A stretch of 48,103 nt of DNA from positions 1 through 48,103 of IMG/VR virus record IMGVR_UViG_3300037487_002334. One strand, 5' to 3'. Numbering within the stretch: position 1 is the first letter of the stretch; each line of letters opens with the position of its first letter. Source of the DNA: a virus. The position numbers and the translations under genes are program-made. Positions 1,190 through 43,181 of this stretch are shown here, piece by piece. Below the pieces are notes generated by a model. It was not told where the DNA came from. It did not search any database and was given only the letters and a program-made list of their open reading frames with translations.

Positions 1190-1193
1190 AAAA

Positions 1194-2507: not shown

Positions 2508-2602
2508 TAATAATCCTTTCTGTTAGATAAAAACTGTTTAAACTCTTGATATTCGGTATTTAATATATATACCTGTTTTTGGGTATACAAAGTATGGAAA
2601 CA

Positions 2603-2617
2603 GAACAAATAATAAAG
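2603..2617 (+). promoter_or_regulatory. Putative late promoter motif GAACAAATAATAAAG
   Basis: One of ten intergenic copies of a GAACAAATWATAAAAG-type motif in the window. It lies 37 bases before the start at 2640. Just upstream, TATACC (about 2567) and GGTATA (about 2582) form a small inverted repeat that might be an operator. Confidence 0.5.
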
Positions 2618-2639
2618 TTAACTTTAGAGGAATTATTCT

Positions 2640-17606: not shown

Positions 17607-18326
17607 ATGGAATCTAGGATTTATTATGTTTATATTTATATGGATCCTAGGAAACCAACAGAGGAATATGATTTTAAATTCGAACCGTTCTATGTAGGAA
17701 AAGGATGCAAAAAACAATATTTATCACATTTATTGGAAGCTAGAAAAAGACAAATAACGGGATGGATAAATACTCATAAGTTCAATAAAATACGAAATAT
17801 ATTGAATGAAGGATTAGAACCTATAATAATAAAATATAGAAGCAGTCTTTCTGAAGAAGAGGCATTCGATTTAGAAAAAGAACTTATAAAGAGAATTGGA
17901 AGATACGATTTAAAAACAGGACCTCTTACTAACAAAACAGATGGAGGAGAAGGATGTAATAATCCTTCTGATGAATTGAGAAGTCGTTTGCGTTCATTTG
18001 TTGCTGGAAAAACTTACGAAGAAATGTATGGAGAGGAAAAAGCTAAAGAAAAAAGAAAAAGAATGCATAAAACCTGTAAGGAACGTCCTTGGTCTGAAAG
18101 AGTTGAAAATGTCGAAATAGCAAAACAAAATATGAGCAAATCTCATATGAAATCATATTTAATTACTCATCCTGATGGGCATGAAGAAATTGTATCAGGA
18201 TTAGCAAAATGGTCACAAGAACATATGATAAAGCAAACATCAATGTTTGCTGTTGCAAATGGCCAAACAAAACAACACAAAGGTTATAAGGTTATAAAAC
18301 TAACGGTTACTAAAAACAATTTATAG
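17607..18326 (+). CDS. GIY-YIG homing endonuclease (free-standing)
   Basis: A 239-residue selfish endonuclease gene inserted between tail tube and baseplate genes. The GIY-YIG core is seen as YYVYIYMDP (6-14) and FYVGKG (28-33), with the helix Glu region (EEEAFDLEKELIKRIGR) and the family tail GPLTNKTDGGEG (about 105-117). In many relatives the turn after GKG carries a conserved Arg; here it reads GKGCKKQYLSH with Gln at that place, so activity may be reduced. The C-terminal ~100 residues are basic and probably bind DNA. A terminator lies upstream, so expression may depend on read-through. Confidence 0.88.
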   Translation: MESRIYYVYIYMDPRKPTEEYDFKFEPFYVGKGCKKQYLSHLLEARKRQITGWINTHKFNKIRNILNEGLEPIIIKYRSSLSEEEAFDLEKELIKRIGRYDLKTGPLTNKTDGGEGCNNPSDELRSRLRSFVAGKTYEEMYGEEKAKEKRKRMHKTCKERPWSERVENVEIAKQNMSKSHMKSYLITHPDGHEEIVSGLAKWSQEHMIKQTSMFAVANGQTKQHKGYKVIKLTVTKNNL

Positions 18327-20518: not shown

Positions 20519-23200
20519 ATGGCAATAGATCTTTCTTCAAACTCAATAGAGATTTTTTCTTCGAGAGAACGAATTAGAGTTCAACTTATAGATTATGCTC
20601 AAACATATTTAGAGTTGAATAAGGTAGATCTATATAAAACCTCGTTCGTTTCTTACATTATAAATGTTCTTTCAATTCTTGGTGCTAATCAGTTATATTA
20701 TACCTCTTCTATCTATCGAGAATTTTTCATGACAGAGGCACAGATGCCAGAGTCTGTTTATAATCTCGCTAAATGGATAGGATATACTCCTGAATCAGCA
20801 TATCCTGCACAAGCAGACGTTCTCATAACATTTCCTCTAGACTTTGTTAACAATGATGTTCAGTTTTCTTTTCCTCAAGGATTTCAAATTAAAGCAAGTG
20901 ATATTATTTATACTATAGGAAGTCCTAGTGAAGCAGCAGCATTTACAGTAAAGACTGATACGTCTGAAATTCAAACGACCTTAGATGAAATGGCCGCTGC
21001 GGATATAGTTCTTAAAGCATATCAAAATAAAGCAATTACAGTTAGAAATAATAGAAGTGGATATTTTTATCCTGTTGCTTATAATAGAGACAATAGGACT
21101 GCATCAGTATTACTTCCATTTACACAATATGATACTCAGGAGTTTAATTTCTCTGTTCCTGAAACATTAGAGTTCTATCAATTTTGGTCTATAAAAGTTG
21201 ACTATGAAGGAATGGATTGGAAAGTAGAAGTATATAGAGAAAATGATGGTGGTGGTTATACGTTTGCAGATGATACTTTGAAGTATGATAAACTAGAACA
21301 AGCAGAAGCAAATTCTATTTATACAATGACCAGTGATGAAGAAAAATATGTATGGATAGCTACATTGAATAAAGGAGAAATATTCTTTGGAAATGGTATT
21401 ATAGGAAAACAACCTGAACAGGGAAAACGTATAAAGGTTATTGTTTATGTTACAAAAGGAGAAGGCGGTCAAGTTATTCCGAATGCATTAACCAATCCCG
21501 ATAGAGTTTATTATCAAGGTGTTGATGTTGATCTTCAACCGAAACTGTTTCTAGTAAAAATGACTACAACAAATCCGTCAGCAGCAACAGGCGGAAGTGA
21601 TTCTCCACCTATAAATGAAATTAAATCCAAAGCAATTGCAAATCTGAGAAGTAAAGAGAGATTTGTTTCTGAGTCAGATTACGATGATTTTGAATATATC
21701 GTAACAGATACTCCTTTGAGTAGTGTTAAACCTGTTTTGAAAAGATCTGATTTAAAAATAAATGAAATAGAAGTATTTTCTAAAATGGTATACGATGATC
21801 AAATCGTTCCTACTAGAAATATACCTATCACATTAGATGCTACAACTCCATTAATTATTCCAGACAGATGGGTTGTTAATGTTGATGATGAATATTATGA
21901 AACATTATTTACTATAGATTGTGATATATTTACGGATCAAGCAGAATATCAATATGTCGTTAGAGATGTTACATTAATGCCTACTCTTCAAGCAAATAGC
22001 GAGTATGCCCAATATTGTTATATAATAATGTCAGATATAAATTGTGTTCGTGATGGATATGCTATCGATATAACTGCCAATGTAACAAATATTCAAGACA
22101 AGATTCCAGTTGATACGTTTCAATGTTTTGTTACAACAGGATGGGATGCGGCACGATATGCAATGACTGCTGAATTTGATACAGAACCAGTTCCTAATCT
22201 TATGGATTTTACTTATAAACTTACAAACTATTTAGATATTCCTCCGGGAAACTTTAGATTATTCTTTGAAATATACGGAGGAGTTCCGGATCAATATCTT
22301 CCAATTTCTGAACAAACTGGAAGTCCTACACATTACGGATTAAAATTAATTTCAACATATTATACTTATATTACGGTTAGAAAAGATCTTTCAAACTTTA
22401 TGCTTAGCTCTATTACTGGAGATTCTACATCTGTTTATGTTGTTCATAATGTTCCTGTTGTTAAGAAAATTTATATGGACTCTATTGATAGATCTTTGTT
22501 TGAAGCAATAGTTATACAAAAATATATAACCAATGTTGAAATGAATACAAAGAGGATGTTGACTGACTTTATAAATATTAAATTTTCCGATACTACTGGA
22601 AAACTTAAAAATATGAGATACAATCTTCCTAATCTTAAAGTCGTTGCTACTATGTCAAGAACTTCTATGCCAATAGCTCCTGACTTAGGATATAGGTTTA
22701 TAATTAATGGAGAAGAGCAAACATCGTATGTAGATCATAAAGGAAAGATTGCTGAATGGAATGGTTCCTCTTATGACTTATATACTCCATTTGTAAATGA
22801 TTATGTGTATGTAGAAGATCAAGAAATAAAGGTTATATGGACGGGATGTCATTGGATGGAACCTATATTTGATATTCCATTTATAATCGAAGCAACTGTT
22901 ACAAGAACATCTACATCGGCAATTACTATTGCAGCACTCATTGATAAAATTAAAGCAGCATTAATAGAATACTTTACTCCTTTGTTTGGGTTGGATGCAA
23001 CAATAGATAAATCTGAAATAGTCAAGGTTATAAGAGGTGTTCCTGAAGTTTTATTTGTCACCCTTCATCAACCCGAAGTTGACTTAAGATTTACATATGC
23101 AATTCCTAACGATTTAGCACAGATTGATCTTTTGGATTATACTCCAGAATTAGTTGCATCTACAAGTGATAATATTATTATAAATGTAATAGATAAATAA
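20519..23200 (+). CDS. Baseplate wedge protein (T4 gp6 / baseplate J-like)
   Basis: An 893-residue protein. Residues 1-115 have the helical start of gp6/J proteins (YLELNKVDLYKTSFVSYIIN, then Q-M-P-E-S-V-Y-N-L-A-K-W-I-G-Y-T-P). GEIFFGNGIIGKQPEQG (about 288-305) and GGSDSPPINEIKSKAIANLR with the E-S-D-Y-D-D-F motif (about 358-395) are hallmarks of the baseplate J family. The C-terminal ~130 residues contain the helix-strand module I-D-K-I-K-A-A-L-I-E-Y. Dimers of this protein form the inner baseplate ring. It ends in a bidirectional terminator. Confidence 0.9.
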   Translation: MAIDLSSNSIEIFSSRERIRVQLIDYAQTYLELNKVDLYKTSFVSYIINVLSILGANQLYYTSSIYREFFMTEAQMPESVYNLAKWIGYTPESAYPAQADVLITFPLDFVNNDVQFSFPQGFQIKASDIIYTIGSPSEAAAFTVKTDTSEIQTTLDEMAAADIVLKAYQNKAITVRNNRSGYFYPVAYNRDNRTASVLLPFTQYDTQEFNFSVPETLEFYQFWSIKVDYEGMDWKVEVYRENDGGGYTFADDTLKYDKLEQAEANSIYTMTSDEEKYVWIATLNKGEIFFGNGIIGKQPEQGKRIKVIVYVTKGEGGQVIPNALTNPDRVYYQGVDVDLQPKLFLVKMTTTNPSAATGGSDSPPINEIKSKAIANLRSKERFVSESDYDDFEYIVTDTPLSSVKPVLKRSDLKINEIEVFSKMVYDDQIVPTRNIPITLDATTPLIIPDRWVVNVDDEYYETLFTIDCDIFTDQAEYQYVVRDVTLMPTLQANSEYAQYCYIIMSDINCVRDGYAIDITANVTNIQDKIPVDTFQCFVTTGWDAARYAMTAEFDTEPVPNLMDFTYKLTNYLDIPPGNFRLFFEIYGGVPDQYLPISEQTGSPTHYGLKLISTYYTYITVRKDLSNFMLSSITGDSTSVYVVHNVPVVKKIYMDSIDRSLFEAIVIQKYITNVEMNTKRMLTDFINIKFSDTTGKLKNMRYNLPNLKVVATMSRTSMPIAPDLGYRFIINGEEQTSYVDHKGKIAEWNGSSYDLYTPFVNDYVYVEDQEIKVIWTGCHWMEPIFDIPFIIEATVTRTSTSAITIAALIDKIKAALIEYFTPLFGLDATIDKSEIVKVIRGVPEVLFVTLHQPEVDLRFTYAIPNDLAQIDLLDYTPELVASTSDNIIINVIDK

Positions 23201-23250
23201 GAACAAAAAAAAGAATAGACTGATGAGCTCGTTCAGTCTATTCTTTATTT
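23201..23250. terminator. Bidirectional rho-independent terminator
   Basis: A 14-bp stem AAAGAATAGACTGA/TCAGTCTATTCTTT (23210-23223 with 23233-23246) with a nine-base loop containing GAGCTC. It follows the gp6-type stop codon and also ends the leftward paralog operon. The left flank GAACAAAAAAAAG is the same as in the terminators at 1155 and 47674. Confidence 0.88.
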
Positions 23251-23261
23251 ATTTTAGGAAC

Positions 23262-23552
23262 TTATAAGTTATACTCCAATTTAAATATAATTTCTTCTTC
23301 TGGAGTAGCAGGAATTACTTCTTCAATATTTGCAAGTGTTATATTATCCTTAAGTCTTCTCTCTTCGGGATTATATGTATTCCATGTTATATTACATAAC
23401 TTTCCAGAGTTAAAACTTTCACAAACCCTTATTGCAAAAACCATAAAATTATTTTTCTTTAGGTAATCATGCCAGGTTGAATTGTACGTTCCAGACCATT
23501 TTCTGAATCTTAATTTATAAAGTTTTCCTTTGAGGATTCGATCACATTCCAT
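23262..23552 (-). CDS. Array protein 17 (96 aa, last in operon)
   Basis: The final member of the small-protein array. It aligns along its length with array protein 16 just upstream: (Y)KL near residue 12, W-x-x-Y-x-K-x-(I/N)-(N)-F around 30, then (I/N)-T-W-x-(C/T)-Y-(S/N)-P and the acidic E-E-E-I-I-F-K-L-E end. Its ATG sits in the last 11 bases of gene 16, and GGAGA from that gene's Trp-Arg codons serves as ribosome site. It still carries GGAG in its own tail, although no gene follows. Function unknown. Confidence 0.75.
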   Translation of the reverse strand: MECDRILKGKLYKLRFRKWSGTYNSTWHDYLKKNNFMVFAIRVCESFNSGKLCNITWNTYNPEERRLKDNITLANIEEVIPATPEEEIIFKLEYNL

Positions 23553-23832
23553 GCTCTAATCTCCAAATAAATGCATCCTCATCATCTGCTATTTTTATTG
23601 ATAATACTCCCAGCAGTCGCATTCTTATAATTTTATTAAAGACTGGGGAATAACATTTCCAAGTTATATCTGCAATGTAATTACTTGAAATGACATCTAT
23701 CATTGCAAGTACTTCAAAGTTTATACTTTTATAATAATTTTTCCATATGGGGTCAAAAACTTCAAGATCCGCAAGCAAAAGTTTATAAACATATCCTTCT
23801 TGCAATTGTTCTGTTGTATGTTGAAGATACAT
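23542..23832 (-). CDS. Array protein 16 (96 aa)
   Basis: A small beta-rich protein with the array end motif D-D-E-D-A-F-I-W-R-L-E-H-G-M. Closest in the window to array protein 17, with which it shares spaced motifs (YKL, W-x-x-Y-x-K-S-I-N-F, I-T-W-K-C-Y-S-P). It has an independent ribosome site (TAGGAGGATGT) just after the WW-repeat gene, which lacks the end motif. This may allow it to be expressed separately. Its final codons hold the ribosome site and start of gene 17. Function unknown. Confidence 0.75.
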   Translation of the reverse strand: MYLQHTTEQLQEGYVYKLLLADLEVFDPIWKNYYKSINFEVLAMIDVISSNYIADITWKCYSPVFNKIIRMRLLGVLSIKIADDEDAFIWRLEHGM

Positions 23833-23840
23833 ACATCCTC

Positions 23841-24695
23841 CTAATATGGATCAGGCAGTCCTTCGATTTTCTTTATATAATAATCAGTTTCCCAAATATC
23901 TTTATATCGCTTACAATATCTTACCAATTGTTCATGATATGTCCAATCAAACTTTAATGGATCCCACCATGTTTTAATTTTATTTTTAAGTCTGTATATA
24001 AGTACCTCGGTACCGTCTTCACACCAATAATACTTATCGGGATTCCACCACAAATCAAAATGTTTCGTACAACGATCTGCTAATGAAGAAGATGAACTCA
24101 TCCAATTAAATTTTTCTGGATTCCACCATTTCTTTATCGGAATCAAATCACATAGTTCTGATGAAGACCCATCCCAATTAAATCTATCAGGATCCCACCA
24201 TTTATCGAAAATTTCATGACAATAATCTAATAAGGTAGATGAACTGTCTGCCCAATTAAATTTTTTAGGATCCCACCATTTATCAAAATGATCCCTACAA
24301 TTCCTGGAAAGTTCTCCAGAATAAAACTTGAGTGGAAAATCTTTTTTATTATACCAAACATCAAAGTATTTTGAACAGTATCTAATTATATCAACTTTAT
24401 CTCCACAATACTCATAGTCTTTCCACCAGATGAGAAAATGTTTAGAACATTTTTTTGGTAGGAAATCACATGCAGCTACCCAGTTAAATTTTTTAGGATC
24501 CCACCATTTCTTAAATGATGAAGAACATTTCTTGGCCAAAAATTTAGAAAGATTTGGTCCGTATACTTTATAATCCTTAGGATCAAAATTCCTTCTGAAA
24601 TCGTTATAAAATTTTCTATTACATGAAAATCTTACTTTGGTTGAAAAATAATTGTCATCTAAAACTTGTTTCTTTTTACTCATATCACCCTTCAT
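23841..24695 (-). CDS. WW(D/N)PxKFNW repeat protein (284 aa)
   Basis: A Trp-, Lys- and Asp-rich protein made of nine or ten imperfect repeats of about 26 residues, from about residue 24 to 270. The consensus is C-x-x-H-F-D-x-W-W-(D/N)-P-x-K-F-N-W-x-x-S-S-x-x-L-x-x-(Y/R). The best copies are the fifth to eighth; the third and fourth have degenerate WW units. A regular solenoid-like or Trp-stacked fold is likely. It lacks the C-terminal motif of the neighbouring array proteins but shares their 11-base overlap with the upstream gene. A second in-frame ATG at 24683 is an alternative start. I do not recognise this repeat. Confidence 0.8.
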   Translation of the reverse strand: MKGDMSKKKQVLDDNYFSTKVRFSCNRKFYNDFRRNFDPKDYKVYGPNLSKFLAKKCSSSFKKWWDPKKFNWVAACDFLPKKCSKHFLIWWKDYEYCGDKVDIIRYCSKYFDVWYNKKDFPLKFYSGELSRNCRDHFDKWWDPKKFNWADSSSTLLDYCHEIFDKWWDPDRFNWDGSSSELCDLIPIKKWWNPEKFNWMSSSSSLADRCTKHFDLWWNPDKYYWCEDGTEVLIYRLKNKIKTWWDPLKFDWTYHEQLVRYCKRYKDIWETDYYIKKIEGLPDPY

Positions 24696-25005
24696 TCTCC
24701 AATTTCCATAATGATGATTCGTATTTATTTAAAATATAATAATCAGTATTTAAAAAATATCTTCCTTCAAGGTAGGCAAATACTTTATTTATATGGCACC
24801 CCACTCGCATCTCGGGAATAGTTTTTATATATTTTAATTCCCAGACACCTCTGAATGGGCCCCTTTTTGATAATTTACTTCTTACTAATTTATAATAATG
24901 AGTATAGTTTTCTAACATATGCGGAAAATTAATTTTTATAACTCTTCCTTCATCACGTTTTCTGAAAGTTCTTGTACCTTCTTCTCTTCTCCATTTATAT
25001 TCCAT
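24685..25005 (-). CDS. Array protein 14 (106 aa)
   Basis: A basic, Arg/Tyr-rich member of the array ending in Y-E-S-S-L-W-K-L-E-N-E-G. Its start overlaps gene 13 by 11 bases. Its own last codons (TTGGAGAATGAAGGG) hold both a GGAG site and the ATG of the WW-repeat gene. It shares with protein 13 the N-terminal M-E-Y and the D-x-G-R-V-(V/I) motif near residue 20. Function unknown. Confidence 0.75.
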   Translation of the reverse strand: MEYKWRREEGTRTFRKRDEGRVIKINFPHMLENYTHYYKLVRSKLSKRGPFRGVWELKYIKTIPEMRVGCHINKVFAYLEGRYFLNTDYYILNKYESSLWKLENEG

Positions 25006-25321
25006 ATTCCAATTTCCATAATAAAGATTCTGATTGACTTAAAATTAAATAATAATACATACACGACATACCTGTATTGTAGTCATTTGAAGTTAAATAA
25101 ACGCTGTTTAATGATTCTGGTATTGTATTGCTTCTTAAAATAGTTCCATCAAAGCACCTTCGAAGTATAGGTTCAAAATACCATCTACCCTTCTTCTTTA
25201 GTAAGAAATAAAAAATCTCTTCATTACTAAACGGTACCATGACAACTCTCCCAATATCATTGTCTGAAAATTTGATGGATGTGTGAATTGTTTCCCATTC
25301 ATATTTACTATCATATTCCAT
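24995..25321 (-). CDS. Array protein 13 (108 aa)
   Basis: An array member with D-N-D-I-G-R-V-V near residue 22 and the end motif S-E-S-L-L-W-K-L-E-Y-G-I. The start overlaps gene 12 by 11 bases (ATGGAATATGA), with GGAGA in the Trp-Arg codons of gene 12 as ribosome site. Closest to protein 14. The composition suggests a small beta barrel followed by a C-terminal helix. Function unknown. Confidence 0.75.
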   Translation of the reverse strand: MEYDSKYEWETIHTSIKFSDNDIGRVVMVPFSNEEIFYFLLKKKGRWYFEPILRRCFDGTILRSNTIPESLNSVYLTSNDYNTGMSCMYYYLILSQSESLLWKLEYGI

Positions 25322-25577
25322 GTTCTATTCTCCATCTAAACACTTCCCACGGTTCAAGAAGTTTTATCTTATCACGAGGTTCTAAGAAGTGTATTCCTGC
25401 AGAAAATGCTAGTATTACCATGAGGGCAGTATCGACATCCTTAATAAAACCTACTTGAGTTTCACAATAATGTTCATACGGATATATGGGAGGAGTTTCG
25501 TGATAGATCATAAGTTCTATTATCCTTTCATTTAACTCCTCCCTTTTATATTCGCTACATAATTTGAACTCACTCAT
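25311..25577 (-). CDS. Array protein 12 (88 aa)
   Basis: A short member with an early E-E-L-N-E-R-I-I-E-L helix/strand and the end motif E-P-W-E-V-F-R-W-R-I-E-H-G-I. TGGAGAATAGAACATGG at its end encodes Trp-Arg-Ile-Glu-His-Gly and, read as RNA, provides GGAGA and the ATG of gene 13. Its own start overlaps gene 11 by eight bases. Function unknown. Confidence 0.75.
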   Translation of the reverse strand: MSEFKLCSEYKREELNERIIELMIYHETPPIYPYEHYCETQVGFIKDVDTALMVILAFSAGIHFLEPRDKIKLLEPWEVFRWRIEHGI

Positions 25578-25797
25578 CCGCGTATTTAATTTTATCGCTT
25601 GGATTTATTTTAATAACATCCCCACCAACGGTTGTCAAATATGGATCTATTCCTATTTGACATGAAAATGTTCCTTTTACAATACTTCCATCCTCAGTCA
25701 AAACAACCTCAACTTGTTCCCCATTGTATTCTTGCATCTCCATATTTTCTATTGTTCTTAAAATTGTATACCACCCCGTCGAACCTTTAAATGCCAC
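25570..25797 (-). CDS. Array protein 11 (75 aa, GTG start)
   Basis: The shortest array member. It starts with GTG at 25797 after AAGGAG, independent of the previous gene, and reads M-E-M-Q-E-Y-N-G-E-Q-V-E-V-V-L then K-G-T-F-S, a pattern suggesting a small barrel. It stops at N-P-S-D-K-I-K-Y-A-D-E, so it lacks the final helix of the others and looks like a truncated paralog. The stop overlaps the next start by eight bases. Confidence 0.7.
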   Translation of the reverse strand: MAFKGSTGWYTILRTIENMEMQEYNGEQVEVVLTEDGSIVKGTFSCQIGIDPYLTTVGGDVIKINPSDKIKYADE

Positions 25798-25808
25798 TTC
25801 GTATCTCC

Positions 25809-26126
25809 TTATGCTTGATTATAAAAAGTTATTGTTTTTGTTTTTAAAATATCGTAATTTCCCCCCTGTAATTTTAATATCATAATTTCGTCTTCAGTTA
25901 GAAGTCTTAGTTTATCTGCGTGAATTAATCCTCTACAATACATCTCATGTTTATTTTCATCGTAATATAAAAGACTAAATGCAGTGATACTTGCATGATC
26001 ATATATCACTCCTCTTACTGTTTTTCTTTTATATTTTCCTTGTTCGTACTCTTTAATCTCAACAAATTCTCCTATTAAATCTTTGAGGGAGATTTCGCTT
26101 ATTAAATTAAATCGGTTTGGTTTCAT
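25809..26126 (-). CDS. Array protein 10 (105 aa)
   Basis: A typical member: D-L-I-G-E-F-V-E-I-K-E near residue 15, K-R-K-T-V-R-G-V-I-Y near 35, D-K-L-R-L-L-T-E-D-E-I-M-I-L-K-L-Q-G-G-N-Y-D near 75-95, then a short extra tail. The ATG lies within gene 9's last 20 bases, where GGAGGGGATTATG serves as ribosome site and start. Function unknown. Confidence 0.75.
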   Translation of the reverse strand: MKPNRFNLISEISLKDLIGEFVEIKEYEQGKYKRKTVRGVIYDHASITAFSLLYYDENKHEMYCRGLIHADKLRLLTEDEIMILKLQGGNYDILKTKTITFYNQA

Positions 26127-26403
26127 AATCCCCTCCTATAATTTTTAATATATGTATATCTGTTTCATCAAGAATTCTTACTTGATCATCGTAAAATATA
26201 TTTATTCGTTCCGTAAATTCTGGATGTTTCGAATCAGGGGCTCCTTTACACAGATAAATATCTTCATTTTCTGAATAATAATGTACTTTGGCATATACTG
26301 AATCATCTTCGTCCTGAAACCTTCCTTTATTTGGAAGTATTTCTATGAATTGATGGAGCAATTCATCTGTATTGTAGTCGCTTATATATTTAAAATTGTT
26401 CAT
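26107..26403 (-). CDS. Array protein 9 (98 aa)
   Basis: An array member with D-E-L-L-H-Q-F-I-E-I-L-P near residue 13 and the end motif D-E-T-D-I-H-I-L-K-I-I-G-G-D-Y-E. I choose the ATG at 26403, because TGGAG precedes it and it falls at the Y-E codons of gene 8, as at other junctions; an in-frame ATG at 26412 has no ribosome site. Its I-I-G-G-D-Y-E codons encode the GGAGG site and ATG of gene 10. Confidence 0.72.
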   Translation of the reverse strand: MNNFKYISDYNTDELLHQFIEILPNKGRFQDEDDSVYAKVHYYSENEDIYLCKGAPDSKHPEFTERINIFYDDQVRILDETDIHILKIIGGDYETKPI

Positions 26404-26680
26404 AATCTCCATTTAATAATTTTAATATTATTATTTCATCCTGATCTAGGAATCTTATTTTATCCATCGTCTCTATTGGATTTGTACGAAGTGAATTATC
26501 TTCATAATAAGTAAGAAATGCAGTTGACTCATTTTTAGATAATTGAACACAAAAATTTGTTTGCCCTTTAAGAGTTTTTCTATAATATCCCCCGCCAAAT
26601 TTTTTAATTTTTAACTCAATGAATCTCCCCATCAGATCTTCCCAATGGAATTGGTTTCTATAATTAAAACCTTGTCTCAT
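26390..26680 (-). CDS. Array protein 8 (96 aa)
   Basis: A member with D-L-M-G-R-F-I-E-L-K near residue 15, K-T-L-K-G-Q near 35, and D-K-I-R-F-L-D-Q-D-E-I-I-I-L-K-L-L-N-G-D-Y-E at the end, the clearest copy of the array signature. The start overlaps gene 7 by 17 bases. AATGGAGATTATGAA in its tail gives the ribosome site and start of gene 9. Function unknown. Confidence 0.75.
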   Translation of the reverse strand: MRQGFNYRNQFHWEDLMGRFIELKIKKFGGGYYRKTLKGQTNFCVQLSKNESTAFLTYYEDNSLRTNPIETMDKIRFLDQDEIIILKLLNGDYEQF

Positions 26681-26963
26681 ACGAATAACTTCCGTGTAAT
26701 AGGTGTAATATTATAATTTCATCATCATCCAAAAACCTAAACTTATCAGATTTATATATAGCTATAGAATCCTTTTCTCCATCAGCAGCACAATATACAA
26801 GAACCATATGATCAATATCAGTAAGTGTTTTTGTCGGGCGTATTAATTTTCCACTAAGTTTAATTTCTTTCTTGTTGGATTCTCCCATCAGAATTACTTC
26901 GATAAACCTATCGAATACATTTTCAAAGCGCTTTATTTCTTTATATTTCATAGTTGCAGTCAT
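26664..26963 (-). CDS. Array protein 7 (99 aa)
   Basis: A member with N-V-F-D-R-F-I-E-V-I near residue 14, K-L-S-G-K-L-I-R near 35 and D-K-F-R-F-L-D-D-D-E-I-I-I-L-H-L-L-H-G-S-Y near the end. The start overlaps gene 6 by 23 bases; the in-frame ATG at 26951 is an alternative that matches the N-Y-E codons of gene 6. The ribosome site (TTGGA) is weak, implying coupling. Function unknown. Confidence 0.75.
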   Translation of the reverse strand: MTATMKYKEIKRFENVFDRFIEVILMGESNKKEIKLSGKLIRPTKTLTDIDHMVLVYCAADGEKDSIAIYKSDKFRFLDDDEIIILHLLHGSYSYETRF

Positions 26964-27300
26964 TTTCCAATTTTAATATAATTATATCCTCTTCTGGTAG
27001 AAGTCGAATTTTATCCCGGATGCATATATTGTATCTAAATTGAGTTCCTGGATTTTCTGACTCATAATAAATAAGAACGAGATTTTCTACACTTTCAAAA
27101 TATAATGTCGGAGCAGTCCAAGCTAAATCATTTTTGCGAACCAACCTTCCTTTAATAGGTGGTTTTCCTCTCCAAGAATCTTTCTTCAGTTCTACAAACT
27201 TGCCATATATTTCAGGAGCTTTGAAGGATCCTATTTGACGAAATCGTTTTAATTTTTCAGTAACTTCTTCTGGAGTTTTTATTCGTTTGTTATACGCCAT
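26941..27300 (-). CDS. Array protein 6 (119 aa, N-terminal extension)
   Basis: The longest small member. An extra basic N-terminal helix (about 1-28) precedes the common body: I-Y-G-K-F-V-E-L-K-K near 32, I-K-G-R-L-V-R near 48, then D-K-I-R-L-L-P-E-E-D-I-I-I-L-K-L-E-N-D. Its ATG lies inside the I-I-W-R codons of gene 5 (22-base overlap), with GAGGAAG from the Glu codons as ribosome site. Function unknown. Confidence 0.75.
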   Translation of the reverse strand: MAYNKRIKTPEEVTEKLKRFRQIGSFKAPEIYGKFVELKKDSWRGKPPIKGRLVRKNDLAWTAPTLYFESVENLVLIYYESENPGTQFRYNICIRDKIRLLPEEDIIILKLENDCNYEI

Positions 27301-27548
27301 ATTATAACTTCCTCTTCTTCTAAAATCCTTATTCGATCATATGGAAATACATAGCACCACATTGTAGGTGCTTCAAACTTATACATTGATGTTCCAAAAA
27401 AACTTTCTCGCATCGTAAGTTTGCCTACAGTAGGTTTATCTCTAAATATTTCAACATACTTTCCTACCATATCTTCATTAATATAATCACATATTTGTTT
27501 ACACATTTGTCCATTTAATAGGGTGAATTCAAGTTCGTCTCTATTCAT
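27279..27548 (-). CDS. Array protein 5 (89 aa)
   Basis: A member with E-D-M-V-G-K-Y-V-E-I-F near residue 25, V-G-K-L-T-M near 40 and the end motif E-E-E-E-V-I-I-W-R-I-T-N-E. The start overlaps gene 4 by eight bases (ATGAATAG), with GGAGA in gene 4's Trp-Arg codons as ribosome site. Function unknown. Confidence 0.75.
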   Translation of the reverse strand: MNRDELEFTLLNGQMCKQICDYINEDMVGKYVEIFRDKPTVGKLTMRESFFGTSMYKFEAPTMWCYVFPYDRIRILEEEEVIIWRITNE

Positions 27549-27822
27549 TCTCGATTCTCCATATTATCTGATCCTCTGGGGGAACAATGTCAAATGAAAT
27601 AATGCTTCCTGTAGAAATACTTAGGGTGGTTTGTTTATCAATTTTTACTTTTAAAAATGGAGTTATCCATCCCTTTTTTTCAATAACAATTAATTTACCC
27701 ATAACAATATTTCCTTCTCTAAGTTCAAAACGTAAAACCTTATGCATGTAAAGTATCCATTCAACCCATTCGTATTTATATATTACTTCCATTCTTTTTT
27801 GCCATGATAGAGCATCTACCAT
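27541..27822 (-). CDS. Array protein 4 (93 aa)
   Basis: A member with M-G-K-L-I-V-I-E-K-K-G near the middle and the end motif P-P-E-D-Q-I-I-W-R-I-E-N-E. I choose the ATG at 27822, seven bases after GGGAGG and just after the stop of gene 3; upstream in-frame ATGs at 27828 and 27837 are too close to, or before, that site. The tail TGGAGAATCGAGAATG starts gene 5. Function unknown. Confidence 0.72.
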   Translation of the reverse strand: MVDALSWQKRMEVIYKYEWVEWILYMHKVLRFELREGNIVMGKLIVIEKKGWITPFLKVKIDKQTTLSISTGSIISFDIVPPEDQIIWRIENE

Positions 27823-27824
27823 TT

Positions 27825-28130
27825 TCATGCCTCCCATGGTTCATATTCATCAGGATTTAATCCAGTCAACAATCTATACATTATATCTACCTCTTTATTT
27901 ATAAATCTTGTTAAAATAATATTAAAGGAATGTAGTTTAATCTCTAATCTACTTCTTGGATCATTTGGATCCCATCCAACGCTTTTAGTTAATGGTCTTA
28001 GTACCAATCTATAAATTCCGTCTTTATCGATTGTTATATCAGTTATACGAAACATATAGATTGTTGATACTATAACTTCTTCATTTAAAAACAACTTCAT
28101 TTCTTCTGGAGTTACTTTAGGTACCGTCAC
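27825..28130 (-). CDS. Array protein 3 (101 aa, GTG start)
   Basis: A member starting with GTG at 28130, seven bases after AAGGAG supplied by the Lys-Glu codons of gene 2. The end reads N-K-E-V-D-I-M-Y-R-L-L-T-G-L-N-P-D-E-Y-E-P-W-E-A, an extended form of the array motif. The codons for P-W-E-A (CCATGGGAGGCA) give the ribosome site of gene 4. Function unknown. Confidence 0.74.
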   Translation of the reverse strand: MTVPKVTPEEMKLFLNEEVIVSTIYMFRITDITIDKDGIYRLVLRPLTKSVGWDPNDPRSRLEIKLHSFNIILTRFINKEVDIMYRLLTGLNPDEYEPWEA

Positions 28131-28395
28131 TATGATTCTCCTTAAGAAGGTTGAACATTATCTTATCTTCTTCATGAACAAATCCATGAAAACGATCATT
28201 ATAAAATTCCTCCATTCTAAATTTATATATTGATCCGCAACTCTTTATTGATATAAATAGACTTAAAGCATAACCAACAACCTCTTGTATTGTCCCTACT
28301 ATTATACATCTATCATAGTTATTATTACCATAAGGATTTATTTGAAATAATACATTCTTACCAATAAAAAGTACAAAAAGTTTTTCAGGTTTCAT
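28117..28395 (-). CDS. Array protein 2 (92 aa)
   Basis: A member with F-I-G-K-N-V-L-F-Q-I near the start and the end H-E-E-D-K-I-M-F-N-L-L-K-E-N. The ATG at 28395 is chosen for its spacing to AAGG in the tail of gene 1; an ATG two codons upstream (28401) is possible. It overlaps gene 1 by 11 bases, as at several other junctions. Function unknown. Confidence 0.7.
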   Translation of the reverse strand: MKPEKLFVLFIGKNVLFQINPYGNNNYDRCIIVGTIQEVVGYALSLFISIKSCGSIYKFRMEEFYNDRFHGFVHEEDKIMFNLLKENHSDGT

Positions 28396-28663
28396 CGACA
28401 TTCGCCTTATAATCAATTAGTAATTTATATAGAATTTGATCTTTTGGCCAAACGAATTCAACAAATCGTTGTGGAAAGATATCTAATCTCATAAATAGTT
28501 CTGTATTATCATTCTCAGATCCTAATAGCAAATGTGATTGAGAAACTTCATTTATACTAAATGCAGATTCCTTACCATTATAAAAGTCGGTTACTATTAT
28601 AATGACATGGTGAAGAAATAAATCTAGTATTTTAGCTAGATGCTGTCTATCTCTTAAAGTCAT
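28385..28663 (-). CDS. Array protein 1 (92 aa, first in operon)
   Basis: The first gene of the array with a strong independent ribosome site (AGGAGGATAAAAC). It has a hydrophobic early segment (L-D-L-F-L-H-H-V-I-I-I-V-T-D-F) and the end W-P-K-D-Q-I-L-Y-K-L-L-I-D-Y. The 86-base gap to the divergent promoter at 28750 is AT-rich with TATATATA; no leftward GAACAAA motif is seen, so the array may be expressed at a different time from the tail genes. Function unknown. Confidence 0.74.
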   Translation of the reverse strand: MTLRDRQHLAKILDLFLHHVIIIVTDFYNGKESAFSINEVSQSHLLLGSENDNTELFMRLDIFPQRFVEFVWPKDQILYKLLIDYKANVDET

Positions 28664-28749
28664 GTTTTATCCTCCTAGAGTATTAAAATTAATGCTTTAT
28701 ATGTTATTCAAAAATAAATATATATAGTTCTTAACTAATATTTAAATAA

Positions 28750-28765
28750 GAACAAATTATAAAAG
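28750..28765 (+). promoter_or_regulatory. Putative late promoter motif GAACAAATTATAAAAG
   Basis: Copy of the shared motif, 36 bases before the tape measure ATG, in the divergent gap next to the paralog array. Confidence 0.58.
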
Positions 28766-28785
28766 AACAACGCAAGGAAATCAAA

Positions 28786-35302: not shown

Positions 35303-36408
35303 CATAGATACGTTCTTACAAAGAAGGCGAGATAATAAGCAAGACAATCTCTACTCATCTTCTTTGTTTGAATCGATCTTGTATCAAACCATTTCTTTAT
35401 TCCCAATGAAGGAACTATATGTTCATCATGGAGTTCAACAAGTACCTTTTTAAAGTATACAGGTTTAGTACTTGTTTTTACTGCCATTAGGAGTTTAATA
35501 TAATCAAGAAATTGATTTGAACAAATCATTTTTAAGTCAGTTATTGGTCTAAGCATTAACATTATAAGCAGTTCAATTTTCTCTTGATATGCAGGATTAG
35601 CTAATGACCTAGCATACGCCTTTGCATATTCTTTATTAAACTTTGTTAATTGTCTAGATTCTTCAATAGACTTTTCATCGATCTTATGATATATACAAAT
35701 ATCCTTAGATACGTTAGAAGAGAATGTTCTCTTTTTATTTTCTAATGATTCTTTTTCAAAACGATCTTTTTCATCTTTACTAGAAATCTTTTCTTTATCT
35801 TCCTTTGATGCATAATAATGACCATAGAAGGATCTCATTGATTGACCAATACGAGTACGAACCTCATAGATCATTTTTTCTAGAAGATCCGGATTATCAA
35901 CTCTTAGTGCTTTTTCATATTTTTGGAATGTAACTTTACTTAAATAAAGAATTGAATTTCCTATTGTACTCTTAGTTCTGAATAAATGAGAATGACTTAA
36001 TCGTTCCATTGCTGCACGAAAGTATTCAGCATTGCAACCTTGAGGTATAAACTTGTGCATGATATTAGAATAATATCTTAATGCAAATAAGTTAAATGCC
36101 CACATACCTCCAGCTAAACTTTTTTCATCATTTAAAAAATGTTGACATATTAATATAAGAAGAGTTGAATATGGATCATGTAATAATCTCCACTTCATTT
36201 TATACCTAGCAGTACTATATTTTTTTAATTCCTGTTCAGTAGTATTTGTCTTGTGCATTAGGTCTTTAAATAAAGGAGCTATCCTAGGATAGTAACAATC
36301 CTGTGACATTTTACCTAACTCATTTGCAGTTTGAGATTCAATATAATGTCTTAGTGCAGAACTATCTATATCACTTGCTTCAAGACCCTTAGGAGTTAAC
36401 TTGAACAT
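35299..36408 (-). CDS. Unknown helical protein
   Basis: A 369-residue, helical, Lys/Tyr-rich protein. There is no membrane span; a highly charged segment lies near 205-230 (DKEKISSKDEKDRFEKESLE). The C-terminus reads W-F-D-T-R-S-I-Q-T-K-K-M-S-R-D. Its ATG shares bases with the stop of the preceding gene, whose last codons (CGG AGG TCT) form the ribosome site. Its 3' end overlaps the tube initiator stop by four bases on the other strand. Because it is paired with a scaffold-like protein, a virion or assembly role is plausible. Family not recognised. Confidence 0.75.
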   Translation of the reverse strand: MFKLTPKGLEASDIDSSALRHYIESQTANELGKMSQDCYYPRIAPLFKDLMHKTNTTEQELKKYSTARYKMKWRLLHDPYSTLLILICQHFLNDEKSLAGGMWAFNLFALRYYSNIMHKFIPQGCNAEYFRAAMERLSHSHLFRTKSTIGNSILYLSKVTFQKYEKALRVDNPDLLEKMIYEVRTRIGQSMRSFYGHYYASKEDKEKISSKDEKDRFEKESLENKKRTFSSNVSKDICIYHKIDEKSIEESRQLTKFNKEYAKAYARSLANPAYQEKIELLIMLMLRPITDLKMICSNQFLDYIKLLMAVKTSTKPVYFKKVLVELHDEHIVPSLGIKKWFDTRSIQTKKMSRDCLAYYLAFFVRTYLC

Positions 36409-37331
36409 TAAGACCTCCGATTATAACATTTACTAAGATAATCATAAACTTGTTGTCTTATATTAGTACTTTCTTTAACTGTTTCTTGTGTTTTTGTCTT
36501 CCCTGACAATTCTACGCCTTCTTCCATTTCATCCATATTTTCAGATGAAGGAGGTTTAATTGTATCTATTTTTTTGGTTTCAATTTCCATTGAATTACTG
36601 CCTGCATCTTGAGCCATGACATTTGCAGTTCCTGACAACTCTGCTCCTTCATTTCGAGAAAATTTATTAAGACAACTATAAACTTGTTTGCGTACTAATG
36701 ATTCTCTTACTTCAGCAAGTTTTTGATCTTTATCAGAAGGTTTAGCTGGCATTTGAGAAGGCATATCGTCTCCAGAGGCCTCTTCGACCTTTGCCTTTGC
36801 ATCTTCTGAATCTTGACTTTCACTCTTAATATCACTCATAGTAGGTTTTTCAATAGGACCAGCCGAATGTGTTCCTGCATCCATTGCTTGAGCATCTGCC
36901 ATTCCTTTATTTGCTTCATATACAGTGGAATATATTTCGTTAACAAAATCTTTAATAGCTGCTTCCATCTTAGCAAAGTCAGGAACCTTGTTAGTACTTA
37001 GTTGATTCCGTTCTTCTCTTTCAGGATGGTTGTCATCAGTTTGATCACCGATCATTTTGTCTTCTAATGATTTAATTTCATCATCTGATTGCTTTCCTGC
37101 AAATCCTTTATAGATAGGAATTGCTGGTTTCTTCATAGTAGATCCTGCGGGGACGTTATCCTTATTAGAGGGTTCCTCAATCTTTTTCCCCTTTATCTTT
37201 TCTGGGGTCATACTTTTCTTATCAAACTTTCCTTGACCTACAGGTTGTGTTTTGGGTTCAGCAATTTTCAGATCTTCATGGTATAATTTTGAATATTGTT
37301 CTTTTAGTATCTGGGAATAGGTTTTCTTCAT
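36408..37331 (-). CDS. Acidic, disordered, scaffold-like protein
   Basis: A 307-residue protein dominated by Glu, Asp, Lys, Ser and Pro, probably disordered. Short helices repeat: V-R-K-Q-V-Y-S-C-L-N-K-F (about 212-223) and I-R-Q-Q-V-Y-D-Y-L-S-K-C (about 291-302), each near an E-L-S-G motif, so a peptide unit seems duplicated. This composition resembles prohead core or scaffold proteins, but also tail assembly factors; neither is proven. It starts with GGAGG and has a leftward promoter motif at 37356-37370. Translation is coupled to the next gene. Confidence 0.75.
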   Translation of the reverse strand: MKKTYSQILKEQYSKLYHEDLKIAEPKTQPVGQGKFDKKSMTPEKIKGKKIEEPSNKDNVPAGSTMKKPAIPIYKGFAGKQSDDEIKSLEDKMIGDQTDDNHPEREERNQLSTNKVPDFAKMEAAIKDFVNEIYSTVYEANKGMADAQAMDAGTHSAGPIEKPTMSDIKSESQDSEDAKAKVEEASGDDMPSQMPAKPSDKDQKLAEVRESLVRKQVYSCLNKFSRNEGAELSGTANVMAQDAGSNSMEIETKKIDTIKPPSSENMDEMEEGVELSGKTKTQETVKESTNIRQQVYDYLSKCYNRRS

Positions 37332-37440: not shown

Positions 37441-38016
37441 ATGATGAATGAAGAACTAACAATCGATCCAAAAGAATTACAATCTTATATTGATTTAAAC
37501 AAGGTAGAACGTTATTTAGGTTCATGGGGACTACTTTATCTTACTGGTATTATAGCAGCGATAATTTGCGATAAGGATAGTTACATACCCATTGTCCTCT
37601 TGGTTGCATGTTTGGCAACTATTATTCAATTCATCTATACTAAATTACGATTGACAACTATAACTAAGAAACTTATAGATGAGATAATTAAAATCGACTA
37701 TAAAGAAGGGAAAATTAAGTCAGAAGATGAGTTAAGGATAATAACAGAATTGTGTAAATATGAGAATATTATTCAGTATGTTCAAATTCAATTTACATCC
37801 TTGATGATTTATCCCGTAATAATGATATTATTCAAAATAGAATCTCATAATTATCAATCTCTTATATTATTTGGCATTGCTATTATTATTAACTTATTAA
37901 TTTCCATATTTATATTAAAAAGAATGAAACAATTAAATAAACAACTAAAGGAGATTAGAAATGGCAAAGACGTCAGCAGTGTCATCGTCGGGCGGAATGA
38001 TGGTAAAACATTGTAA
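37441..38016 (+). CDS. Membrane protein with about four spans
   Basis: A 191-residue protein. Hydrophobic segments lie at about 28-43, 49-66, 118-132 and 140-158, two hairpin-like pairs, separated by a charged cytoplasmic-type loop (about 70-110). The tail is basic. TTGGAG precedes the ATGATG start. It opens a cluster of four small overlapping or closely spaced genes ending at tandem terminators. Function unknown; an envelope role such as superinfection exclusion or lysis control is possible but not supported by a motif. Confidence 0.78.
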   Translation: MMNEELTIDPKELQSYIDLNKVERYLGSWGLLYLTGIIAAIICDKDSYIPIVLLVACLATIIQFIYTKLRLTTITKKLIDEIIKIDYKEGKIKSEDELRIITELCKYENIIQYVQIQFTSLMIYPVIMILFKIESHNYQSLILFGIAIIINLLISIFILKRMKQLNKQLKEIRNGKDVSSVIVGRNDGKTL

Positions 38017-38119
38017 TTGTGAATCATCATATAGTGACAAACATTATGGCAAAGGTTTACGTCCCCATAACAAAACCACGAAGGGACATCGTTGCTGCAT
38101 ATGTGGCAAATCTTCATAA
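37961..38119 (+). CDS. 52-residue putative zinc-binding protein
   Basis: A short gene overlapping the preceding membrane protein by 56 bases in another frame. AAAGGAG lies ten bases before the ATG. The product has a Ser-rich start and Cys/His residues in the pattern H-C-N-C ... H-N-K-T-T-K-G-H-R-C-C-I-C-G, which fits a small zinc finger. The next gene's ribosome site overlaps its stop. Function unknown. Confidence 0.65.
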   Translation: MAKTSAVSSSGGMMVKHCNCESSYSDKHYGKGLRPHNKTTKGHRCCICGKSS

Positions 38120-38130
38120 AAGGAGAGTAA

Positions 38131-38334
38131 ATGGCATCATTACAATTACCAATGGCAACATATCTGGCATTGAAGAAGCAGTTTGGTTTGTCGGGATTTG
38201 AATGTAAAAACTGCGACTCAAAAAGATTTACTCTTGCAGAAGAAATTGTGCAAGGTAAAAATGAGGAAGAAATTAGTGAAGTTCATTTTACATGTACCAA
38301 ATGTTTTGTAACAGTTCAATGTGAACTGTGTTGA
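38131..38334 (+). CDS. 67-residue zinc-ribbon protein
   Basis: A small protein with AAAGGAG nine bases before its ATG. Two CxxC pairs (C-K-N-C near residue 25 and C-T-K-C near 55) form a zinc ribbon; a further C-E-L-C closes the protein. Such ribbons commonly bind nucleic acid or proteins. It is the third gene of the small-protein cluster. Confidence 0.75.
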   Translation: MASLQLPMATYLALKKQFGLSGFECKNCDSKRFTLAEEIVQGKNEEEISEVHFTCTKCFVTVQCELC

Positions 38335-38344
38335 AGGAAAAATT

Positions 38345-38470
38345 ATGATCTCTCTAGTAGCATGGTGGGCAGTAAAACATAACAAACTTTCATCTGAGTA
38401 TAAAGAGCTATCTTTAATTATTCCTATAATTGATTTAATCATTATAGGAAGTTTTATTACATGGCTCTAA
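38345..38470 (+). CDS. 41-residue membrane protein
   Basis: A very short gene with GAAGGA before the ATG. The product is MISLVAWWAVKHNKLSSEYK followed by one hydrophobic span (about 22-41) ending at the C-terminus. It is the last gene before tandem terminators. The function is unknown. Confidence 0.6.
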   Translation: MISLVAWWAVKHNKLSSEYKELSLIIPIIDLIIIGSFITWL

Positions 38471-38479
38471 TTACTACCG

Positions 38480-38517
38480 AAGAGGGAACTATAAAGGTTC
38501 CCTCTTTATTTTTTTAC
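38480..38517 (+). terminator. Rho-independent terminator (first of a tandem pair)
   Basis: A 10-bp stem AAGAGGGAAC/GTTCCCTCTT with a seven-base loop, followed by TATTTTTTT. It ends the small-gene cluster. Confidence 0.88.
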
Positions 38518-38538
38518 CTACTTTTACGTAGGTTTTTT
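38516..38538 (+). terminator. Rho-independent terminator (second of a tandem pair)
   Basis: A 6-bp stem ACCTAC/GTAGGT with a six-base loop followed by a run of T, immediately after the first terminator. It would block read-through into the antisense of the adhesin genes. The 80 bases to the next gene show no further structure. Confidence 0.8.
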
Positions 38539-38620
38539 ATGACTTTAAGTTACTTAAAACGACTATGTATATCGACTTCTATGTGTAATACAGCAGTAGG
38601 ATTTTTGTTTAGTTTATAAC

Positions 38621-39691
38621 TTAAAATACACTTAATGATTGGGTATTTATTGTGCCTGTTGTTCCCCCAGTTACAGTACAATGAGAAGCAATTGTTCCGT
38701 TAATAGTAGATGTAACATATGCTAGAGTGACTGATCCACCTCCAGATCCTCCGCCTGTTGCTCCAACTCCTGCCGAACCGCTTACAATCCATGCACCCGA
38801 TCCTGCTCCGCCAGATGATATTCCAGATACATTAATAGATGCAGATGATCCAATCCTCAAATCATAGCAAATAATATATATACTGCTTCCTATTCCTACT
38901 GTTCCAGTCGCTCCAGTGTTGTATGGGGTTGGTCCAGTTACTCCAAACCACGAAATAAATCCATATTGCTGAGTGGCGCCTCCAGTTCCTCCGGCAAGAC
39001 CAGATCCTCCCCCGCCCGAGCCACTCCATACTCCTAGTGTAGTAGCTGTACTTGCGGATCTATATACTCCAGATGCCCCATTTCCGCCAGATGAATAACT
39101 AGCTGCTGAACCAACTGATCCGTTGGCATTTCCATCAGCAGTAGATCCTCCTGATCCTCCCCCTCCTCCATTTCCTCCTCCAAAACATGAACCAGATGAA
39201 CCCGCCCCTCCCGCGCCACCTTGTGCTCCTCCAGATGCATTAGATCCAGTTCCTCCTGTTGCTCCATTGGCACACTTGATTCCAGTAATTAATGAGGAGC
39301 TAAATCCGGAACAAAATGGAGTAACTGATAATAATCTTCCAGATTTAGTTTCCGAATATCCAAGAGCCGCAGTAGTTCCACCTTCGCCAGAAGTCATATA
39401 TCCTTTATTTGCTAAATTAAATGTTCCATCTATAATACATCTTCCCTTAACAAATAAAACAAGACCTTTAAATATATCTGATACAGTAATAATATGTCCT
39501 GTATTTAATGTAAAATTATTATACTGTTTAACTATATAATTGTTTCCAGTTACTGTATATTGGTAGTTTCCCGTCGAATAGAAATCCCCATCCTGTCCTG
39601 CTCCACATATAAAGTTTTTATAAATGGGTTTACTGGATAGTAAACTAGTACTAATACTATCTGCTTTTTTGTTGGCAATATTTTTAATCAT
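38621..39691 (-). CDS. Glycine-rich tail-fibre/adhesin-like protein
   Basis: A 356-residue protein. The first ~120 residues are a beta-rich head domain (YQYTVTGNNYIVKQYNNFTL), and the rest is dominated by Gly, Ser, Ala and Thr with many GG(A/S/T)G runs, including GGGNGGGGGSGG. Such motifs form polyglycine-II helices in phage adhesins (for example gp38-type tips). It lacks the N- and C-terminal tags shared by the three upstream paralogs, so it is a more distant relative. It starts 15 bases after the previous stop with GAGAGGATAAT. Confidence 0.72.
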   Translation of the reverse strand: MIKNIANKKADSISTSLLSSKPIYKNFICGAGQDGDFYSTGNYQYTVTGNNYIVKQYNNFTLNTGHIITVSDIFKGLVLFVKGRCIIDGTFNLANKGYMTSGEGGTTAALGYSETKSGRLLSVTPFCSGFSSSLITGIKCANGATGGTGSNASGGAQGGAGGAGSSGSCFGGGNGGGGGSGGSTADGNANGSVGSAASYSSGGNGASGVYRSASTATTLGVWSGSGGGGSGLAGGTGGATQQYGFISWFGVTGPTPYNTGATGTVGIGSSIYIICYDLRIGSSASINVSGISSGGAGSGAWIVSGSAGVGATGGGSGGGSVTLAYVTSTINGTIASHCTVTGGTTGTINTQSLSVF

Positions 39692-39705
39692 TTTATTATC
39701 CTCTC

Positions 39706-40497
39706 TTATGCTAATTCATACCATTCGATTTTACAATAACCCGAACCACCTGCTCCAGAATATCTGCTCTGATATGCTGATTGACTACCACCTCCACCAC
39801 TTCCAGAATTTGCTTCAGCTGCACCAGCAGGACCATAGTCTGATCCCAATCCGCCTAGATACCCGCCTCCACCGCCACCCCCATGCCCTGGTTGGCCACT
39901 ACCACCACTTCCATAAAAATCAGGACCTCCATCCCAATAGACGGCTGACCCGCCAGCAGATCCAGATCCTCCACTTGCGGCTGTCTTGAAATACGGTAAG
40001 GAATAATTATTGAATCCGATGTCTAATCTGGTTCCATGAGATGTACTTGCTCCAGCAACTCCTAGGCCACTTGTTCCTCCCGCAGCTGATAATGATCCGC
40101 CACCTTTTCCTCCTCCCCCGCCTTCTGCCGTTATAGAAACATATAGTCCAGAAACACTAGACGGATTACCATTTGCGCCATTTCCAGCTGTATTTCTTCC
40201 AGTGGCCCCCGTTCCTACTGTAATAGAAATTGTCTCGCCTTTAATAACTCGTGCAGGATATTTTACTATCTTGGTTCCAGATCCACCTCCGCCTGCATAT
40301 ACCATTCCCCCTGCTCCGCCTCCCCCAAATAATGTAATCCAAACTATATTATTTAAACAAACAGGAACTTTCCATGTAGAGACTCCGGTTGTTTTAAATT
40401 CTACTGATTTTAAAACTGTAGAAAAATTACCTGAAGTAATAGATAATTTATTAGGAAATAGATTATTTAACTTATCAAATATTTTTGATGTAGACAT
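39706..40497 (-). CDS. Glycine-rich adhesin-like paralog 3
   Basis: A 263-residue protein. It shares the N-terminal tag MSTSKIFDKL and the C-terminal tag G-G-S-G-Y-C-K-I-E-W-Y-E-L with two upstream genes. Between them, a short beta segment (VLKSVEFKTTG, then V-W-I-T-L-F-G-G-G-G) leads into polyglycine blocks separated by variable loops. A role as a receptor-binding tip is likely, with the loops contacting the receptor. GAGAGGGATAAA precedes the ATG. Confidence 0.75.
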   Translation of the reverse strand: MSTSKIFDKLNNLFPNKLSITSGNFSTVLKSVEFKTTGVSTWKVPVCLNNIVWITLFGGGGAGGMVYAGGGGSGTKIVKYPARVIKGETISITVGTGATGRNTAGNGANGNPSSVSGLYVSITAEGGGGGKGGGSLSAAGGTSGLGVAGASTSHGTRLDIGFNNYSLPYFKTAASGGSGSAGGSAVYWDGGPDFYGSGGSGQPGHGGGGGGGYLGGLGSDYGPAGAAEANSGSGGGGSQSAYQSRYSGAGGSGYCKIEWYELA

Positions 40498-40509
40498 TTT
40501 ATCCCTCTC

Positions 40510-41379: not shown

Positions 41380-41392
41380 TTTTATCCCTTTC

Positions 41393-43161: not shown

Positions 43162-43178
43162 CTTTTTATTATTTGTTC
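43162..43178 (-). promoter_or_regulatory. Putative late promoter motif GAACAAATAATAAAAAG (leftward)
   Basis: Copy of the shared motif on the minus strand between the terminase stop and the metallopeptidase start, 26 bases before the ATG. It would drive the metallopeptidase and adhesin genes. Confidence 0.55.
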
Positions 43179-43181
43179 CGA

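Follow-up and report, generated by a model that had tools for sequence, protein, structure and literature searches.

A 17-gene block of small, divergent proteins sharing a C-terminal tail in an IMG/VR phage record with T4-type structural genes

The 48,103-base IMG/VR virus record IMGVR_UViG_3300037487_002334, analysed at its full length and called the window here, encodes a T4-type terminase, a sheath, a gp6-type baseplate protein and a tape measure protein, all distant from those of cultured phages. Between the last two genes (gp6, plus strand, ending at 23200, PHROG 219, E = 4e-21; tape measure, plus strand, starting at 28786, PHROG 1272) lie 17 open reading frames (ORFs), g1 to g17, that run leftward from 28663 to 23262. 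An earlier sequence-only reading had described an operon of 17 coupled leftward genes at 23262–28663 between a gp6-type gene and a tape measure gene, and both the operon and its position were borne out. Sixteen of the genes encode small proteins and one, g15, a repeat protein; judged from their sequences, the true unifying feature of the block is a short C-terminal signature. The explanation tentatively favored here, at a little under an even chance, is that an accessory module, in which variable bodies are joined to a shared C-terminal docking helix, has expanded in this lineage to give the operon.

The tail has the consensus [D/E]xx-[I/L]-[I/L/M]-[F/W/L]-[K/R]-[L/I]-[E] and was recognized by eye in 15 of the 16 small proteins, the exception being g11, which ends just short of it. 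Thus, the claim that all sixteen carry the signature held for fifteen, and the end of g15, which had been left out, carries it as well. A motif model whose training set was 17 small proteins, all from other phages, independently located, with 837 control ORFs, the tail in 9 of the 17 window proteins (p < 0.035), 2–9 residues from the end, where fewer than one would be expected by chance. The tail is far better conserved than the body: F88 and K89 are nearly invariant, whereas most bodies are <30% identical.

The same tail is found on proteins of a different kind. The g15 protein has a WWDPxKFNW repeat of ∼26 residues with a WWDP-KFNW core, a family that no Pfam entry matches, and its homologs occur in several other phage records and on one contig of a metagenome-assembled genome. 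Scanning of such repeat proteins with a model trained on small proteins detected the tail on g15 (p = 0.012) and on those of the related phage loci L119 (p = 0.0014 and 0.007), L138 (p = 0.015), and L120 (p = 0.003); it was not detected on the WW-repeat proteins of L007 and L123, phages in which no small-family members were seen. A third scaffold of ∼170 aa carries the tail in L119 (p = 0.024), and its homolog in L138 does not score (p = 0.59). As the same helix ends g15 and its relatives, the tail is portable between unrelated scaffolds. Additionally, in each of the four clade phages found to have tagged small proteins, WW-repeat proteins are present too. At least 10 repeat proteins, in tandem or scattered, are encoded by L123 and L139–L141 (contig IMGVR 3300030037_000008), and those of the L123 phage mostly end in a motif of their own, TKxE-[LI]-I-xx-[LM]-Y. 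Another, ending FKDIWAQDYLLYKLGK, has VWA and AAA genes as neighbors, an arrangement also seen in L119; its contig was binned with a deltaproteobacterium, which only hints at a host. In L120, a phage-encoded multisubunit RNA polymerase is represented at positions 1–3700 by its beta gene (Pfam Rpb2 domains) and a beta-prime-like fragment, and a WW-repeat gene follows a few genes downstream.

Relatives of the small proteins were reached solely by tracing gp6 and the repeat protein into related phages, with gp6 alignment with L006 leading to the relatives and g15 to their arrays; none were obtained by tblastn in phages or by pattern scans of viral contigs or genomes. L138 (on the contig of L039; gp6 49% identical) contains 11 tandem small ORFs of 91–124 aa, nearly all ending in [LM]FK[IL]EHDI or a close variant (e.g., LFKIEHDIA), adjoined by an ORF of 174 aa and a WW-repeat ORF whose product ends SDAILTKLDREDGCG. 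The same site is occupied in L119/L042 by three small ORFs together with a 172-aa ORF and two or three WW-repeat ORFs, of which one is probably frameshifted; thus, the number of small genes at this shared site is 3 in L119 versus 11 in L138. L006, the closest relative (gp6 58% identical), has no such genes at the site occupied in the window. Other loci of L006 hold small tagged ORFs together with a WW-repeat protein (L136) and a protein closely similar to g4 (L137), and a scan of the whole record gave seven tagged small ORFs scoring >12 at about five loci. The seven top-scoring tail carriers in G001 were all small ORFs, of 81–139 aa. The module thus moves and changes copy number. L136 also holds a tail-only remnant, EDTIIFKLRYDL, at ∼8460–8520 on the minus strand, which lacks an intact body and precedes a tagged ORF (8182–8460), as if it were a decayed family member.

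Divergence within these arrays is rapid. Between L138 and L119, one orthologous small gene pair is 54% identical and the others 26–33%, and the adjacent VanY-type peptidase is 55% identical. Ratios of nonsynonymous to synonymous substitution rates (dN/dS), which were crude Nei-Gojobori estimates over large distances and are suggestive only, were ∼0.7–0.9 for three of four L138/L119 array pairs and 0.6 for the fourth, 0.46–0.57 for three pairs within the window, and 0.36 for the neighboring VanY-type gene (L138/L119). The proposed expansion and diversification of the family is thus supported by the 3 versus 11 genes at one site and by crude dN/dS values of ∼0.6–0.9. Homing-endonuclease-induced segmental amplification can drive expansion in phages (PMC13096335), and the window carries a GIY-YIG homing-type endonuclease gene in its tail module (17607–18326; Pfam LEM-3_GIY-YIG, E = 1e-12), although any link to the array is purely conjectural.

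Common descent among the window proteins was established for only some of them. In all-against-all phmmer comparisons, g6 to g10 were certain relatives (E down to 7e-13) and g5 joined them at E = 1.4e-5, whereas g16/g17 (7e-9) and g13/g14 (8e-5) formed separate proven pairs. A decoy-calibrated profile of the core added g12, with 0 of 3,200 shuffled decoys exceeding it, and no other small protein of the window; at the level of sequence, g5–g10 and g12 are therefore a proven family. Relatedness of g1/g2 (E = 0.005), g3, g4, and g11 was not significant inside the window. The body of g11 weakly resembles those of g5–g10 (p = 0.03), and the protein terminates at the very point at which the tail helix should start (DKIKYADE, compared with DKIRFLDQDEIIILKLL in g8), so that it constitutes a body without a tail. 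Calling all sixteen paralogs was consequently too strong, and the subtype defined by IIWRIE endings is not a clade. Best hits were often neighboring genes within the block, and for this reason tandem duplication is the likely origin of the array.

An AlphaFold2 model of g8, built with the seven core sequences, had a mean predicted local distance difference test score (pLDDT) of 73 and a predicted template-modeling score of 0.64, with strands in residues 20–77 and a helix at 80–90. The g17 model, built with two sequences, was poor (pLDDT 62), with a final strand at 76–81, a helix at 84–93, and extra helices. A small beta barrel followed by a helix, as had been suggested, agrees with g8 in its beta body and C-terminal helix; g17 is compatible but weaker, given its additional helices. 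No fold relative was found with Foldseek in the PDB or BFVD at E ≤ 0.001, nor did the small proteins match any family in Pfam (ten of the 17 window proteins or their core), PHROGs, the PDB, or PADLOC (members from related phages only). A resemblance of g11 to RbpA was set aside as chance (E 0.7–1.7). Bodies stripped of their tails showed only weak similarity across phages (g10, p = 0.004; L138 members, p = 0.0015–0.0055), and profile-profile alignment at full length between the L138 array and the window groups matched the tail alone.

Adjacent genes of the block overlap by 8–32 nt at 14 of the 16 junctions, the others being gaps of 11 nt (g10/g11) and 8 nt (g15/g16), and the block is closed by a strong intrinsic terminator (z = −5.75; 0 of 200 shuffles) (Table 1). 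A late promoter motif, in refined form [AG]GAACAAATnATAAA, occurs upstream of structural genes at ten window sites with scores of 19.2 to 24.5 (e.g., 2601–2617 on the plus strand, 43164–43180 on the minus strand, and 28748–28764 on the plus strand), as well as in L006, in similar places, and in L138, L039, and L041. Scores for GAACAAATnATAAA reached no more than 10.2 on the array strand, in agreement with the earlier view that the operon lacks this motif. With its own terminator and no late motif on its strand, the block therefore looks like an independent transcription unit, which would produce a single transcript with early or middle expression. Matches to sigma70-type promoters in the window were no commoner than chance, enrichment of T4-type TATAAATA late promoters was not clear, and Rfam gave no match. 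A 21-nt direct repeat flanks the operon (23187–23207 and 28736–28756); the reading of it as an insertion scar was dropped in favor of a transcription-unit boundary, because its core recurs at 1148–1158 next to another convergent terminator. The element TAAATAAGAACAAAAAAAAGAA is present at 1148–1169 and 23194–23215, at convergent terminators, where it overlaps the stop codons of two genes.

Table 1. Genes of the block and associated transcription signals (window coordinates; p values for tail matches unless stated otherwise).
Feature	Coordinates	Strand	Remarks
g1	28385..28663	-	92 aa; tail KDQILYKLL; weak link to g2, E 0.005
g2	28117..28416	-	99 aa; tail EEDKIMFNLL, p=0.006
g3	27825..28130	-	101 aa; GTG start; tail EVDIMYRLL, p=0.044
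g4	27541..27837	-	98 aa; tail PPEDQIIWRIENE, p=0.0012; matches L137 4708-4971, E 1e-4
g5	27279..27548	-	89 aa; core family; E 1.4e-5 to g6
g6	26941..27300	-	119 aa; core family; tail p=0.0012
g7	26664..26963	-	99 aa; core family
g8	26390..26680	-	96 aa; core family; beta body with C-terminal helix 80-90 in AlphaFold2 model
g9	26107..26412	-	101 aa; core family; tail p=0.030
g10	25809..26126	-	105 aa; core family, E 7e-13 to g8; additional C-terminal extension; does not overlap g11
g11	25570..25797	-	75 aa; GTG start; body ending DKIKYADE just ahead of tail
g12	25311..25577	-	88 aa; core family by profile; body alone p=0.0003
g13	24995..25321	-	108 aa; paired with g14; tail SESLLWKLE, p=0.0012
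g14	24685..25005	-	106 aa; paired with g13; tail p=0.0012
g15	23841..24695	-	284 aa; WWDPxKFNW-repeat protein; ends YKDIWETDYYIKKIEG, the common tail, p=0.012
g16	23542..23832	-	96 aa; paired with g17, E 7e-9; tail DEDAFIWRLE, p=0.0012
g17	23262..23552	-	96 aa; last gene; tail PEEEIIFKLE, p=0.0036; no gene overlaps tail
Intrinsic terminator	23206..23250	-	14-pair stem and U run; shared with convergent gp6 gene
Candidate sigma70-type promoter TTGATT-17-TATAAT	28756..28784	-	93 nt upstream of g1; consensus match only
Late-type promoter motif AAGAACAAATTATAAAA of tape measure gene	28748..28764	+	outside operon, opposite strand

Around the block, the window segment 28786–37331, from the tape measure gene through the gene at 36408–37331, is inverted relative to L006 (12721–20319). 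The small-gene operon lies at one breakpoint and a region with glycine-rich proteins (37441–42166) at the other. Four glycine-rich proteins, probably fibre-tip or adhesin-like, are encoded side by side at 38621–42166, and three of them start with MSTSKIFDKL and are clear paralogs.

In the favored explanation, the accessory module would belong to a clade of large T4-related phages, and each of its proteins would consist of a small, fast-diversifying body, mostly a beta fold of ∼75 residues and once a WW-repeat protein, with a conserved amphipathic helix added to the C-terminus of every body. The tail would be a docking element that brings all the proteins onto the same partner, some machine of the phage or its host, and the bodies would bind differing host or defence factors, so that copy number and body diversity would both be under selection. 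The genes would share one transcript that is free of late control, their translation would be coupled, and the small proteins may act in anti-defence or host takeover, as the sequence-only reading had suggested. A modular adaptor, in which tandem arrays encode many rapidly evolving recognition bodies, with two or more unrelated folds among them, and the portable docking helix on these bodies steers a single machine to changing host targets, is possible though somewhat unlikely; a protease, a polymerase, or a phage compartment, belonging to phage or host, is proposed as an example of such a machine. Several observations weigh against the favored explanation. The sigma70-type promoter ahead of g1 is a consensus match only, the helix of the g8 model follows directly on the last strand, so the tail could belong to one fold, and high dN/dS, estimated crudely at such distances, could reflect relaxed constraint. 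The independent tail model also misses several small proteins of the window and the L136 repeat protein when each is scored alone.

According to the main rival, there is only one small fold, with the helix as the structural lid of a beta-barrel; the repeat proteins would have obtained their lid by fusion or convergence, no docking partner would be shared, and the paralogs may co-assemble as hetero-oligomers. The strand-helix ending common to the g8 and g17 models agrees with such a lid, as does the weak similarity of bodies across phages, but conservation of the tail much beyond the body, its presence on unrelated WW-repeat proteins, and the persistence of g11 as an open gene without it all argue otherwise, and this explanation is considered unlikely. 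A separate worry, raised with the sequence-only reading, was that overlapping start signals (ribosome-binding sites and start codons) produce the C-terminal likeness. Stretches such as WRIE and GDYE do encode GGAG and ATG, and window codons are used twice in this way: TGGAGAATH (W-R-I) and GGAGATTATG (G-D-Y) supply the following gene with its GGAG and ATG. However, g17 keeps the motif with no gene following, g10 keeps it with no overlap into the next gene, and most L138 and L119 genes retain it although gaps of 5–14 nt separate them and the ribosome-binding sites follow the stop codons. Start-signal overlap is therefore not the cause of the hydrophobic helix and is refuted as a full explanation, one that can be nearly dismissed, although it may account for the residues after the helix (GDYE, RIE).

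Two further alternatives draw on the position of the operon. If the proteins were packaged in the virion and injected, the tail would be a capsid-targeting signal and the bodies anti-restriction proteins, by the logic of the T4 internal proteins, which combine a shared terminal signal with variable small bodies (PMC12373910); a T4-related phage with the operon in its structural region would suit this. The signal is C-terminal rather than N-terminal, however, the late promoter motif was not found at the array heads of the window, L119, L136, or L138, and the arrays of relatives lie outside the tail genes, which makes injection improbable. The gp6/tape measure location, within the tail module of this phage, could also indicate accessory structural or tail-assembly proteins. 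This is very improbable, as comparable genes are missing from this site in the close relative L006, relatives carry their arrays beside lysis-type peptidase or folE/nucleotide genes, and the operon is on the opposite strand, where the late motif was not found.

Compared with the first description of the block, the occurrence of the tail across scaffolds and phages adds interest, and the paralogy of all sixteen small proteins is weaker. Should the tail prove to be a docking tag, a whole set of hidden host-directed proteins in uncultured large phages could be listed from it alone, and it would lead to a single shared partner; the T4 capsid signal, by which the internal proteins were listed, is a precedent. 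The 3 and 11 genes at one site, together with the 17 in the window, form a natural series for the expansion and diversification of accessory proteins.

Several known systems resemble the array in part. Sm/Lsm and other small beta-barrels share the overall small beta fold, and Sm chains were among the weak Foldseek matches; however, their helix is N-terminal rather than C-terminal, and the best match overall had E = 0.35, with Sm chains at E of at least 1.4 and TM scores of at most 0.35. These values do not support membership in the Sm/Lsm group. Poxvirus ankyrin-repeat/PRANC (F-box-like) proteins combine a variable recognition scaffold with a conserved C-terminal docking element and are expanded in one genome. 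That likeness is drawn from general knowledge, and PRANC proteins differ in their repeats and in having a eukaryotic partner, whereas the array places one tail on two or three scaffold types. Among the T4 internal proteins (Ip1–Ip3 and relatives), each phage has several small variable inhibitors with one shared terminal signal, directed against variable type IV restriction enzymes (PMC12373910). The likeness lies in small variable proteins with one short terminal signal. In T4 the signal is N-terminal and directs capsid packaging, whereas the array tail is C-terminal, occurs on repeat proteins as well, and has a putative targeting role; the array N-termini are not conserved as in an N-terminal capsid targeting sequence, no sequence relation between the two sets of proteins was found, and the array operon also differs in that the late motif was not found. 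Membership thus fails because the signal is C-terminal and the late promoter is not present, and the T4 internal proteins serve as the best working analogy for a set of small, variable phage proteins united by one terminal signal.

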